Source: Mucispirillum schaedleri ASF457
GTDB lineage: Bacteria > Chrysiogenota > Deferribacteres > Deferribacterales > Mucispirillaceae
DNA length: 64,000 bases
Assembly: GCF_000487995.2 (NCBI RefSeq)
Contig: NZ_CP097562.1
Coordinates: 989,001-1,053,000 of the forward strand
Reading direction: 5' to 3'
Shown: positions 3,583 to 63,869 of the stretch, in pieces
Layout of the letters: each line of letters opens with the position of its first letter
How positions within the stretch are numbered: the stretch's first letter is position 1
Made by a program: the position numbers and the translations under genes
Notes under the pieces: model-generated
Told to the model about the DNA's origin: nothing
Databases searched by the model: none
What the model saw: the letters and a program-made list of their open reading frames with translations, nothing else

Positions 3583-3726
3583 AAGGGAAGCAGGTTCAGG
3601 ATGAGCTCTCTGAAAGTAAGTAAGTGAGTGAGCATTTACTGCGACCAAGCGTAGTTTTTCAAATTCAAAGACGAATTTTAAAATAAAGGATAAATTAAGA
3701 TACTTCGCCTAAAAGGCTCAGTATGA
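3583..3726 (-). repeat. Diverged copy of the four-hairpin intergenic repeat
   Basis: Read on the minus strand, this begins with the head hairpin (GTCATACTGAGCC, then AGGCGAAGTATC, at 3700-3726). It continues with the linker TTAATTTATCCTTTATT and a second AAATTC/GAATTT hairpin, then decayed remains of the third and fourth hairpins. It is a worn relative of the arrays at 44.8, 53.0 and 63.4 kb. Confidence 0.6.
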
Positions 3727-14495: not shown

Positions 14496-14975
14496 GGAAA
14501 CTTACCCAAAAATTTTGCCCTATAAATTATTTTGAGCCTGATTTTAAAGATGAAAAATCTAAATTATATATATTAAAGTATTGTATAATATATTTAACTT
14601 ATCTGTTTTTTAGATACTTCGCTTAAAAATCAAGATCAGTAAGACACGGAAGCAGGCTCAGGACAAGCCGAAAGTGAGCGATAACCAAACTTGTTTCAGC
14701 AGAGTGTGATTTAAAAAATTCAAGGGGAGTGTATTTTACTACTCTTCGCTCCAAGTATAGAAAACGGCTTGCCATTTATATGGGAAAGACCCCGTTTTTG
14801 GCTATGCAAGGACTTTCCAAGCAAGTAGCGATGGAATTAAAAGTCCGTAGCTGGAAAGTATTTTTTTAATAAAGAATAAATTATAATATACTTCTCTTTA
14901 TCACTCTCAGTATGACTATATTGTCACATTGCAGTCATTTTGAGCCTGATTTAAAGGCGAAAAATCTAAATTATA
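14496..14975 (-). repeat. Long, inverted copy of the four-hairpin repeat with a loop insertion
   Basis: On the minus strand this has a head motif near 14890-14915, the linker TTATTCTTTATT, and then about 150 nt inserted where other copies have only a 4-nt loop of hairpin 2. It resumes with AATTTTTTAAATCACACTC, hairpin 3 and worn hairpin 4. Both ends carry the TTTTGAGCC hairpin. The left end (AACTTACCCAAAAATTTTG) matches the terminal repeat of the element at 44777-45438. The insert has paired segments of its own (ACTTTCC with GGAAAGT, AAAACGG with CCGTTTT). Confidence 0.6.
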
Positions 14976-44776: not shown

Positions 44777-45438
44777 GACTTATCCAAAAATGCAGTGTCA
44801 TATTACTATACTGTTATAATCATGTCATAATGAGCCTGAAAGGCGAAGTATCTTAATCTATCCTTTATTAAAAAATTCATCCGTGAATTTTTTAAATCAC
44901 GCTCTGCCGAAACAAGTTCGGCTATCACTTACTAAAGACGGGACTTCCTGTCCCTATCTTAGTCATACTGAGCCTTAAAGGGCGAAGTATCTTAATCTAT
45001 ATCTATCCTTTATTAAAAAATTCATCCGTGAATTTTTTAAATCACGCTCTGCCGAAACAAGTTCGGCTATCACTTACTAAAGACGGGACTTCCTGTCCCT
45101 ATCTTAGTCATACTGAGCCTTAAAGGGCGAAGTATCTATAATAGTAATCTATATATTCATATTTAATTCGCTCGCTGATACTCACTCAGGAAGACATATT
45201 TTAGTATATCAAAAATTTATACAGTATAAAAATGCTACCGCATTAAAAAATATACAAAGTTAAATAAAGCACAATACACTTCAACTTATGTCTTACTGAG
45301 CTTGATTTTTAAGCGAAGTATCTAAAAAATAAAATAATTTAAATATATATACTCTACTGTAATATAAATAGTTTAGATTTTTCACCTTATAACTTCAGGC
45401 TCAAAATGACTTATATGACAAAATTTTTGGATAAGTCC
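44777..45438 (+). repeat. MITE-like element with terminal inverted repeats and a tandem four-hairpin array
   Basis: GACTTATCCAAAAAT...TGTCATAT (44777-44803) is repeated inverted at 45413-45438, about 22 of 26 positions matching. Inside, two tandem units start at 44824 and 44962 (138 and 145 bp) and a third head starts at 45107. Each unit has the head hairpin (GAGCC...GGCGAAGTA), hairpin 2 (AAAAAATTCA-tccg-TGAATTTTTT), hairpin 3 (GCCGAA-acaag-TTCGGC) and hairpin 4 (GGGAC-ttcct-GTCCC). No protein is encoded. Confidence 0.75.
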
Positions 45439-45518
45439 AGTATCTAGAATGCAGCAGCTGCAATAATCTTAAAAAGTATTAATACTTATTGAAACTTATA
45501 TTACATACATCCTTTGCC

Positions 45519-45573
45519 ATATTATATTATATTATATTATATTATATTTAGATTAGATTAGATTAGATTAGAT
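45519..45573. repeat. Pentanucleotide tandem repeats (ATATT)6 then (TAGAT)5
   Basis: Six ATATT units run directly into five TAGAT units. The array covers the stop codon of the membrane protein at 45568, because TAATC on the minus strand supplies the terminal TAA. Changing copy number would not alter the protein. Confidence 0.85.
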
Positions 45574-46017
45574 TATAAAATTTACTACTGCATATATCAA
45601 ATGGCAAATTGTAAAAAATAAAATAAAAATTAATGCTATATAGTTTTTCCTATCAAGAGCAAAAAATAAAAATGCTAAACATGGTGGGATAGTTAAACCT
45701 AAAATCACAAACCCATTTATTATGCCAGCATAATAAACTAAAAAACTTGCAAAATATAGTAAACAGAAGCATACTGCAATGATAATAAGTGGAGTAAATG
45801 CAATTTTTTTACTTTTTATATTCTTTAAAAAACATAATGAAATAATCATAAAAATTTGAGATACAAATGCTGCTTTATCAATAGTTTCTGTAATTGAATT
45901 TGTCTGAAATATATCATGCAGGGGTGGGAAAACAAAGTAAATAAAATTTGGTATCATAATTATTAAAAATAAAATTAATCCCCAAAATTCAAAGCACAAG
46001 CGGTAATTTTTTAACAT
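45568..46017 (-). CDS. Small four-helix membrane protein
   Basis: Not recognised. The 149-residue product is almost wholly hydrophobic with about four helices and no signal motif. It has only a weak ribosome site at the ATG at 46017. Its stop codon lies in the pentanucleotide repeat. It is probably a real but poorly expressed gene. Confidence 0.5.
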   Translation of the reverse strand: MLKNYRLCFEFWGLILFLIIMIPNFIYFVFPPLHDIFQTNSITETIDKAAFVSQIFMIISLCFLKNIKSKKIAFTPLIIIAVCFCLLYFASFLVYYAGIINGFVILGLTIPPCLAFLFFALDRKNYIALIFILFFTICHLIYAVVNFII

Positions 46018-52506: not shown

Positions 52507-52943
52507 TGGATGGGAAAAAAGCATACAGCACATTTAATGGTGTTATGCTTGGGTTTCTTATACTTATTGCTCTTTCACTTGCTGCTGTTTTACTTTTTAC
52601 TAAATCATCAGTTTTCAGCAAAATAGACGAACATGGCTGCAACAACAGTGGCGGCTACACTTTCAGCTATGCAAAAGCTAAATGTATAAAAATATATGAA
52701 GAAGCAGTGCAGTTGAATAAAACAGGCTCAAATAATCCAAATGATTTAAAAGCATTTATTGTTTTTTCTGATGATAATAAATCGGCAGATATTTTTCTTC
52801 CAGACAGAATATATGCACTATTACTGCTAAAAGAGAATAATGCAGAATGGCACGACAACTCATCTACATATATACTTTATAATCTTCCTGAAAAATTAAG
52901 TCTTAAAGAAAATAGTGAAGAAATATATTATATTAACAGATAA
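52506..52943 (+). CDS. Membrane-anchored periplasmic hypothetical protein
   Basis: Not recognised. An N-terminal helix (GVMLGFLILIALSLAAVLLF) is followed by a periplasmic domain of about 105 residues with two cysteines (HGCNNSGGY, AKCIKIY) that could form a disulfide. It is third in a tightly overlapping operon with the IorA-like and IorB-like genes. Confidence 0.6.
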   Translation: MDGKKAYSTFNGVMLGFLILIALSLAAVLLFTKSSVFSKIDEHGCNNSGGYTFSYAKAKCIKIYEEAVQLNKTGSNNPNDLKAFIVFSDDNKSADIFLPDRIYALLLLKENNAEWHDNSSTYILYNLPEKLSLKENSEEIYYINR

Positions 52944-52967: not shown

Positions 52968-53350
52968 GTCATACTGATCCAAAGGCGAAGTATCTTAATT
53001 TATCCTTTATTAAAAAATACATCCTTGTATTTTTTAAACCATACTCTGCCGAAACAAGTTCGGCTATCGCTTACTAAAGACGGCTCGTCATGAGCCTAAT
53101 AAGGCGAAGTATCTTAATTTATCCTTTATTAAAAAATACATCCTTGTATTTTTTAAACCACACTCTGCCGAAACAAGTTCGGCTATCGCTTACTAAAGAC
53201 GGCTCATCATGAGCCTAATAAGGCAAAGTATCTTAATTTATCCTTTATTAAAAAATACATCCTTGTATTTTTTAAACCACACTCTGCCGAAACAAGTTCG
53301 GCTATCGCTTACTAAAGACGGCTCGTCATGAGCCTGATAAGGCAAAGTAT
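52968..53350 (+). repeat. Tandem array of three 119-bp four-hairpin units plus a partial head
   Basis: Units start at 52968, 53087 and 53206, and the final head at 53325. Each has hairpin 2 (AAAAAATACA-tcct-TGTATTTTTT), hairpin 3 (GCCGAA-acaag-TTCGGC) and hairpin 4 (GGCTC-rtcat-GAGCC), the last overlapping the next head. Compared with the 44.8 kb array, stems 2 and 4 have changed on both arms together. Confidence 0.85.
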
Positions 53351-53403
53351 CTAATAAAAAAGATAATTTAAAAATATTATACGCTTATGTAATATATATA
53401 ATT

Positions 53404-53511
53404 TAGATTTTTCGCCTGTAAAAATCAGGCTCAAAATGACATGATTGTAATAGTTTTATTGTTCACAGAGTTATCGCTGCACAATGTCTATTCTGAGCGA
53501 AGCGAAGAATC
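53404..53511. repeat. Two short tandem-GA hairpins
   Basis: One on the minus strand at 53404-53440 (TTTTGAGCC...GGCGAAAAA) and one on the plus strand at 53487-53511 (TTCTGAGC-gaa-GCGAAGAA). Lower stems TTTT/AAAA and TTCT/AGAA covary; the GA steps do not. Confidence 0.75.
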
Positions 53512-53553: not shown

Positions 53554-54474
53554 TTAATCTCTTAAAAATGGAAGAAACTTAAACTTTCTTTCAGGCAGCG
53601 GCTCATCCTGATTATTTTGTGATGGGTTATTTGTAACATCATTTCTTTGGTTATCTAATGCAGAAGCTGGTGGAGTGTTTTGAGTGTTTTCTTCACCAGG
53701 CACAACAGGCACTGTTGTAACTGGTGCTAATACATTTGGTCTATTAATATTATCACTAACGGCATTAGGGTTTATAGATGCGGTATCAACAGCAAGTCTG
53801 AAACCAAGCCCTGCATATCTTAAAGAAGTTCTTTCATCTTTTATAACTTTTCTCATTTCTTTAGGACCGTCGCTAAATCCGCCGCCAGCAACAGCAAGGT
53901 TTGCAGCACCAAGCAGATTAGCACATGTATTAGTTCTATCATTTTCTGAATTGCAAAGCCATTCTTTTACATTGCCAAATAAATCATAGTAGCCTTTGCT
54001 GTTTGCTGCAAATGAGCCGACAGGTGCAGTGTTAGGAAATCTATCATCACATTCAAAATAAGCATTGCCAAATCGGTTTACTGTATTAGATGAAATATCA
54101 TAAAAATTTGCATAAGAGCATACATCATCTCTATTAATTTTTATTTCTCCAACTGCTTCTTTCCATTCAGCAACTGTTGGAAGCCTGTAATTAGACTGAG
54201 TAGCAGAATTTAATGTATTTAAAAATTTCTGAATATCACCAATAGAAACAGATTCCACAGGATAAGAACCGCCTTTATTAAAATAAAATGGAGCTGTATT
54301 CATCACTTTATACCACTGCTCTTGAGTTACTTCATAAACAGCTAAATAGGTTTTGTTATTAAGTTTTTTAAACTCAATACCAGAGTAGCTGTCTATAAAG
54401 GATGGCTTGTCAAAAGCAGCAGCATATAACGGCATAACAATAAAACAAAGTAATATTAGTAATTTTTTAATCAA
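53554..54474 (-). CDS. Secreted SUMF1 / formylglycine-generating-enzyme-like protein
   Basis: Signal peptide MIKKLLILLCFIVMPLYAAA. The core has the family landmarks YLAVYEVTQEQWYKVM, YPVESVSIGDIQKFLNTLN, YRLPTVAEWKEAV, GYYDLFGNVKEWL and AGGGFSD...RYAGLGFRLA, typical of the FGE/SUMF1 lectin-like fold. The C-terminal 80 residues are a disordered Asn/Pro/Gln-rich tail. Members are often not true enzymes but ligand-binding modules. Catalytic cysteines of FGE are not obvious. Confidence 0.85.
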   Translation of the reverse strand: MIKKLLILLCFIVMPLYAAAFDKPSFIDSYSGIEFKKLNNKTYLAVYEVTQEQWYKVMNTAPFYFNKGGSYPVESVSIGDIQKFLNTLNSATQSNYRLPTVAEWKEAVGEIKINRDDVCSYANFYDISSNTVNRFGNAYFECDDRFPNTAPVGSFAANSKGYYDLFGNVKEWLCNSENDRTNTCANLLGAANLAVAGGGFSDGPKEMRKVIKDERTSLRYAGLGFRLAVDTASINPNAVSDNINRPNVLAPVTTVPVVPGEENTQNTPPASALDNQRNDVTNNPSQNNQDEPLPERKFKFLPFLRD

Positions 54475-63390: not shown

Positions 63391-63869
63391 GATTTATCCA
63401 ACAATATAGTCTATTAGTATAAATAGCATTGTTATTATTGTGTCATAATGAGCCTGCTTTATAAGCGAAGTATCTTAATAAATTTATATTAAAAAATTCA
63501 TCCATGAATTTTTTAAATCACGCTCTGCCAAAACAAGTTTGGCTATCACTCACTAAAGACGGGACTTCCTGTCCCTGCATTGTCTTACTGAGCCTGCTTT
63601 ATAAGCGAAGTATCTTAATAAATTTATATTAAAAAATTCATCCATGAATTTTTTAAATCACACTCTGCCAAAACAAGTTTGGCTATCACTCACTAAAGAC
63701 GGGACTTCCTGTCCCTGCATTGTCTTACTGAGCTTGCTTTATAAGCGAAGTATCTAAAAGATAAGATACTTTTAATATATTATGCACTGCTGTAATATAT
63801 ATAATTTAGATTTTTCGCCTATAAAATCAGGCTCAAAATGACTTATGTGACAAACTTTTGGATAAGTCC
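63391..63869 (+). repeat. Second MITE-like element with 140-bp four-hairpin units
   Basis: Units start at 63442 and 63582, and the last head at 63722, a 140-bp period. Hairpin 2 is AAAAAATTCA-tcca-TGAATTTTTT and hairpin 4 is GGGAC-ttcct-GTCCC. Hairpin 3 is GCCAAA-acaag-TTTGGC, a two-sided change from GCCGAA/TTCGGC. Ends (GATTTATCCAACA near 63391, TTTTGGATAAGTCCA to 63869) match the terminal repeats of the 44.8 kb element less well. Confidence 0.75.

Follow-up and report, generated by a model that had tools for sequence, protein, structure and literature searches.

A dispersed hairpin repeat of Mucispirillum schaedleri is probably a structured RNA module with predicted CsrA-binding loops

A tandem array of hairpin-forming units lies near position 53,000 of the window, the whole 64,000-nucleotide stretch of Mucispirillum schaedleri DNA analyzed here, and raises the question of why both arms of its hairpins change together between arrays. 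A sequence-only reading had described tandem 119-bp units of four hairpins lacking an open reading frame (ORF), and had proposed selection for folding plus local homogenization. Tandem Repeats Finder located the array at 52982 to 53352, with a period of 119 bp, 3.1 copies and 98% matches. Hairpins 2, 3, and 4 belong to the repeated unit, but what had been counted as the first hairpin is REP-like and distinct from the unit; its left arm in this array is common to hairpin 4 (TGAGCC). The statement that no ORF lies in the unit does not hold strictly: 40-codon plus-strand ORFs, probably due to chance, span the units at 53090 to 53212 and 53209 to 53331, although nothing suggests coding. The features of the 53-kb array are as follows.

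52982 to 53352, minus strand as the GGA-loop strand: tandem array with three core units and a 119-bp period
52996 to 53097, minus strand: core unit 1, hairpins 2, 3, and 4 (123.7 bits with model R1, which was built with this unit among its members)
53115 to 53216, minus strand: core unit 2 (model R1, 125.1 bits)
53234 to 53335, minus strand: core unit 3 (model R1, 124.7 bits)
53019 to 53030, minus strand: hairpin-2 loop AUACAAGGAUGU, an exact match to the CsrA SELEX consensus RUACARGGAUGU, in the hairpin at 53010 to 53037
53048 to 53064, strand-neutral: hairpin 3, GCCGAA-ACAAG-TTCGGC, with no GGA in its loop, recurring every 119 bp
53082 to 53096, minus strand: hairpin 4, GGCUC-AUGAC-GAGCC, with the stem retained and the loop GGA lost
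53405 to 53440, minus strand: inverted REP-like hairpin GTCATTTTGAGCC...GGCGAAAAATCT, which closes the element (from sequence)

Model R1, a covariance model of hairpins 2 to 4, detected 102 core units in 65 clusters in the 2.35-Mb M. schaedleri genome. Two sister arrays and two diverged single copies lie in the window.

44824 to 45152, minus strand: sister array, 145 bp × 2.3 copies (Tandem Repeats Finder and R1)
44854 to 44955 and 44999 to 45100, minus strand: cores of the 44.8-kb sister array (R1)
63441 to 63755, minus strand: sister array, 140 bp × 2.2 copies (Tandem Repeats Finder and R1)
63475 to 63576 and 63615 to 63716, minus strand: cores of the 63.4-kb sister array (R1)
3592 to 3697, plus strand as the GGA strand: diverged single copy (R1, 54.8 bits; loops inspected)
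14654 to 14753, plus strand as the GGA strand: diverged single copy (R1, 50.6 bits)

The stem changes reported previously are all present in the three arrays. Stem 2 is TACA/TGTA in the 53-kb array versus TTCA/TGAA in both sister arrays, stem 3 is GCCGAA/TTCGGC versus GCCAAA/TTTGGC in the 63-kb array, and stem 4 is GGCTC/GAGCC in the 53-kb array versus GGGAC/GTCCC in both sister arrays. Both arms thus change together in three hairpins, beyond shuffled and slid controls. Among 26 units of the M. schaedleri genome, 9 of 24 pairs changed on both sides, a number reached by 0 of 500 shuffles, and 96.3% of cells were paired, versus 88.3% in shuffles and at most 56% in slid structures. In the nine other Mucispirillum genomes, which contributed 89 distinct units, 23 of 24 pairs covaried (0 of 500 shuffles) and 93.7% of cells were paired; this alignment was built with the model and is hence biased toward the structure, but the slid controls still reached at most 57%. 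Folding also exceeded chance (z of −4.8 for plus-strand RNA and −6.2 for DNA). Hairpins 2, 3, and 4 are therefore well supported as structure, and the covariation, together with the near identity of units within arrays, supports selection for folding plus local homogenization. Inversion as the source of the arm changes is excluded, because the loops keep their orientation (TCC on the plus strand and GGA on the minus strand) while the arms change. In several copies and species, an additional long hairpin region (GCATTTC...GAAATGC or similar), with its own GGA motifs and varying arms, interrupts the unit, mostly in the hairpin-2 loop; examples are in genomes 1638577 and 2170264.

The earlier proposal of a structured RNA is likewise supported, but the informative strand is the minus strand, and reading the plus strand had missed the most conserved part of the unit, namely the loops, which are of the CsrA type on the minus strand. 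There, hairpin 2 reads [A/U]-C-A-N-G-G-A-U-G-[U/A] and hairpin 4 reads C-A-G-G-A-(U/A/C)-G. In the 89 units, the leading A of the hairpin-2 loop is invariant (89/89) and G-G-A is conserved at 95/97/98%, whereas N is nearly random (30/19/16/14, 0.07 bits), and stem columns vary with pairing retained while the loops are conserved. The closing pair of hairpin 2 is C-G in 68 of the 89 units and U-A in 14, and the adjacent pair exchanges A-U and U-A (33/35). The TTCA/TGAA to TACA/TGTA change is such an exchange beside the closing C-G of a CsrA-type site. AUACAAGGAUGU recurs at 53138 to 53149 and 53257 to 53268, giving three SELEX-exact sites in the 53-kb array. The corresponding minus-strand loops are UCACGGAUGA plus CAGGAAG in the 44.8-kb sister array and UCAUGGAUGA plus CAGGAAG in the 63.4-kb one. 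Unlike the 53-kb array, in which the hairpin-4 loop of the second copy (53201 to 53215) is AUGAU, most other copies retain CAGGA[U/A/C]G.

Across the M. schaedleri genome, the exact SELEX consensus occurs in 20 units and CAGGA[T/A/C]G in 79. The motif WCANGGAYGW has 72 sites in the genome, 59 of which lie inside units covering 10.5 kb (0.45% of the genome), all 59 on one strand and 0 on the other; these do not count as 59 independent events, since each unit is a copy of another. The independent evidence for the loop signature is the pattern of change across species, as read from the sequences. Both the CsrA SELEX consensus RUACARGGAUGU and the RsmE loop ANGGAN (PMC7652899) agree with this signature. 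As predicted for CsrA/RsmA sites, an A(N)GGA core lies in a hairpin loop, and the hexaloop is closed by C-G and then A-U or U-A. Typical CsrA SELEX ligands have less stable stems than the 12-bp AU stem found here, which might weaken binding (PMC7652899). The M. schaedleri genome encodes one csrA, located directly after fliW. Its product, in which the RNA-binding residues L4 and R44 are intact, has relatives among CsrA and RsmE chains of solved structure, one of them the RsmE-RNA entry 2jpp. The unit thus resembles CsrA/RsmA/RsmE hairpins in loop letters, closing pairs, the GGA in a hairpin loop, and the presence of CsrA in the genome; it differs in that those are single leaders, whereas here about 100 repeated units carry the predicted sites. 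From these features we infer that CsrA binds the unit RNA.

The positions of units relative to genes point in the same direction. Among relatives in the order, 35 of 159 clusters have an ATG start within 60 nt downstream on the GGA strand, versus 5 on the other strand, when only ORFs of 100 codons or more are counted; this corresponds to 26 sense and 4 antisense distinct genes (two-sided p of about 6e-5). This count replaced an earlier one requiring a Shine-Dalgarno motif (31 versus 4), which was dropped because the unit's own AAGGAT end biases it toward sense. Genes with a unit in front include those for RNase E/G, dnaX, argJ, aroA, a Cys/Met-metabolism enzyme, a FliH-like protein, a GFO/IDH/MocA oxidoreductase, and a cupin. 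The RNase E/G leader occupies the same place in four species, in which the CAGGA, CANGGA, and AGGAG-N6-ATG spacing is kept and the stems differ by compensated changes. The leader-type copies in M. schaedleri, before argJ, dnaX (three units), and the cupin gene (four units), mostly lack the REP-like hairpin. In sister species, units precede Mu-like prophage genes (MuA-like transposase, Gam, head and tail proteins), as if the phage were tied into the host CsrA regulon. In relatives and before four to five M. schaedleri genes, the GGA hairpin lies directly upstream of the ribosome-binding site, as in the CsrA-repressed leaders of glgC and hag, but the module here is common to many unrelated genes, including those of Mu-like prophages. 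Translational control by unit leaders is suggested by this arrangement.

Most M. schaedleri copies, the 53-kb array among them, are intergenic, and most appear to have spread as repeats. Between co-directional neighbors, no strand bias was found in M. schaedleri (16 sense and 17 antisense), the pattern that would be expected if most copies had spread as a repeat and were not under selection as leaders. Tandem periods across clusters range from 118 to about 336 bp, and the difference in unit length between arrays indicates that the arrays formed separately, each through a local tandem duplication. Duplication breakpoints are often in TGAGCC, common to hairpin 4 and the REP-like hairpin. The latter, GTCATACTGAGCC-loop-GGCGAAGTATCT, has two stems with tandem G-A mismatches between them, resembles the widespread GTCATTCTGAGCGAAGCGAAGAATCT repeat, and accompanies most copies in direct and inverted form (44780 to 45440, 53405 to 53440, and 63430 to 63840). 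It lies within 500 bp of 53 of 65 clusters, versus 0 of 325 control windows. An IS3-like right end is present at 31 of 65 clusters, and both ends are present at 9. The genome contains at least 19 copies of an IS3/IS150-like element, often inserted in or beside REP-like hairpins, whose ends resemble those flanking the repeat. In the window, these ends flank both sister arrays.

44777 to 44789, plus strand: left IS3-like terminal repeat GACTTATCCAAAA of the 44.8-kb element
45425 to 45437, minus strand: right IS3-like partner of the 44.8-kb element
63391 to 63403, plus strand: left IS3-like terminal repeat of the 63.4-kb element, with 2 mismatches
63856 to 63868, minus strand: right IS3-like partner of the 63.4-kb element

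An ATATT/AGATT pentanucleotide microsatellite (45519 to 45577) adjoins the 44.8-kb element. Neither IS3-like end is present at the 53-kb array, and a search for a phage or plasmid origin of that array gave no match. A search of the M. schaedleri genome for Y1 (RAYT/IS200) transposases (PF01797), which are present in 5 of 14 control genomes, gave no match either. The suggestion of an ssDNA-processing element thus found no support, and RAYT/IS200 processing was rejected.

Taken as a whole, the GGA-loop signature and the position before start sites in relatives make the repeat look like a regulator-binding module that turned into a spreading repeat. In this preferred reading, which we consider probable from the sequence evidence, the conserved unit is a structured RNA with predicted CsrA-binding loops, a leader module amplified as a mobile repeat. 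The minus-strand transcript would fold into the GC-rich hairpin 4 with its CAGGA(U/A/C)G loop, then the spacer hairpin 3, and the long AU hairpin 2 with the loop A-N-GGA-U/C, usually C-G-closed, and CsrA dimers would dock on the loops of hairpins 2 and 4. Ancestrally, the module probably acted in cis, with the unit just upstream of ribosome-binding sites and CsrA binding controlling translation. In M. schaedleri, the module would have become associated with the REP-like hairpin and the IS3-like ends, dispersed into about 65 clusters, and grown locally by tandem duplication; we infer that the IS3 transposase provided the mobility. The function of the 53-kb array itself is much less certain. The array holds no leader position before a start codon and sits in the convergent gap between a plus-strand gene, which ends at 52943, and an FGE-sulfatase-domain gene on the minus strand (53554 to 54474), whose transcript might extend at its 3′ end through the array. 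If transcribed, for example by read-through from that gene, the array would offer three SELEX-perfect sites and could tie up CsrA or affect the transcript of the gene. Alternatively, it may be a mobile copy that is inert or decaying.

A transposon-borne CsrA sponge, in which a mobile repeat captured the leader module and spread about 100 units whose transcripts titrate CsrA, is conceivable but rather unlikely. Like CsrB, CsrC, RsmY, and RsmZ, the arrays place several GGA-loop hairpins of the CAGGAUG type in a row, as for a CsrA-titrating RNA. However, those RNAs come from one or two genes, whereas the units, as predicted RNAs, are scattered over many loci, in a genome with FliW; Rfam searches of both strands matched no family, the CsrB/RsmZ class included, at the gathering threshold or at E ≤ 10, and promoter-like sites at units were no more frequent than expected by chance. 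CsrA-inhibitory sRNAs have been reported from gamma-proteobacteria, and Deferribacteres are listed among the groups that may use FliW instead of sRNAs (PMC4682653). A sponge, if real, would extend CsrA titration, so far reported only from dedicated gamma-proteobacterial sRNA genes, to a FliW-bearing bacterium.

It is improbable that the unit is purely a mobile repeat of the MITE or REP type, in which the hairpins matter as DNA and the loops serve as a transposase or IS target with no RNA role. The REP-like hairpins and IS3-like ends at clusters, the IS3-family copies with matching ends, and the excess of convergent over divergent intergenic gaps (24 versus 7) all agree with such a repeat, but they leave unexplained why the A-N-GGA loop tolerates any base at N, why units in front of start codons are nearly all in sense (26 versus 4 genes), and why orthologous leaders persist in different species where REP or IS ends are absent. 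The known repeats that come closest differ in other ways. The accompanying GTCATACTGAGCC...GGCGAAGTATCT hairpin is similar to REP/BIME sequences, but these are associated with RAYT transposases, which the M. schaedleri genome lacks. BOX elements of Streptococcus pneumoniae are likewise modular, dispersed, and RNA-foldable, with an internal module in variable tandem number. BOX has been treated as a MITE (PMC10969869). It has another sequence, and a CsrA motif is not described for it.

Two further explanations have very little probability. A structured RNA of the plus strand with TCC loops (for example, a terminator, stability element, or sRNA) would fit the plus-strand folding and the strand symmetry of covariation, but units before gene starts almost always have the opposite orientation, the loop fits a known protein site on the minus strand only, and neither strand has an Rfam match. 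Perfect DNA palindromes are prone to hairpin-templated (quasipalindrome) correction, which may be the mutational route of the arm changes, and arrays homogenized within but different between loci indicate that conversion and duplication act; as the whole explanation, with no selection on structure, it is hardly credible. The loops stay in one orientation and vary far less in sequence across species than the stems, covariation extends to 23 of 24 pairs over the 89 units, and orthologous leaders show compensated differences; nor would such correction account for the conserved A-N-GGA loops or the sense orientation before genes.

As a global regulator, CsrA governs metabolism and motility, and to our knowledge, its sites and antagonist RNAs are little known outside gamma-proteobacteria. 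Literature searches returned no paper tying CsrA to such repeats or to Mucispirillum. According to a review, the joint action of FliW and sRNAs in any species remains to be determined (PMC7652899). If the preferred reading is correct, the repeat provides a case of a regulator-binding RNA turned into a dispersed repeat, in which the FliW/sRNA question is directly testable, and a ready list of predicted CsrA-controlled genes across the order, including RNase E/G, dnaX, argJ, aroA, fliH, lexA, and the Mu-like prophage genes. More generally, "compensating palindromes" in bacterial repeats can hide protein-binding RNA loops.

The unit is not restricted to M. schaedleri. R1 detected 9 to 35 units in each of nine other Mucispirillum genomes. 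An exact hairpin-3 pattern search of genome contigs gave no match, and a loop-based pattern search gave matches in Mucispirillum only. When a second model, R2, was run on other families of the order, three genomes of a single genus gave 22, 21, and 36 matches; because the model behind the matches outside Mucispirillum itself contains the loops, the loops of those matches do not count as independent evidence. These units in other families have the same plan with quite different stems and occur before lexA and lpxA, which were named from their sequence rather than by a family search. csrA is present in all 19 genomes of the order with the unit, and the unit is present in none of the 6 searched genomes without csrA, a co-occurrence that lends weak support because 10 of the 19 genomes belong to one genus with shared ancestry and several csrA-bearing genera of the order lack the unit. 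Another family of the order carries scattered pairs of ANGGA hairpins, such as AGTTCCATGGATGGAACT ... AATTTCCATGGATGGTAAATT, on either side of a GC-rich hairpin, and this ANGGA-pair plan may extend beyond the phylum.
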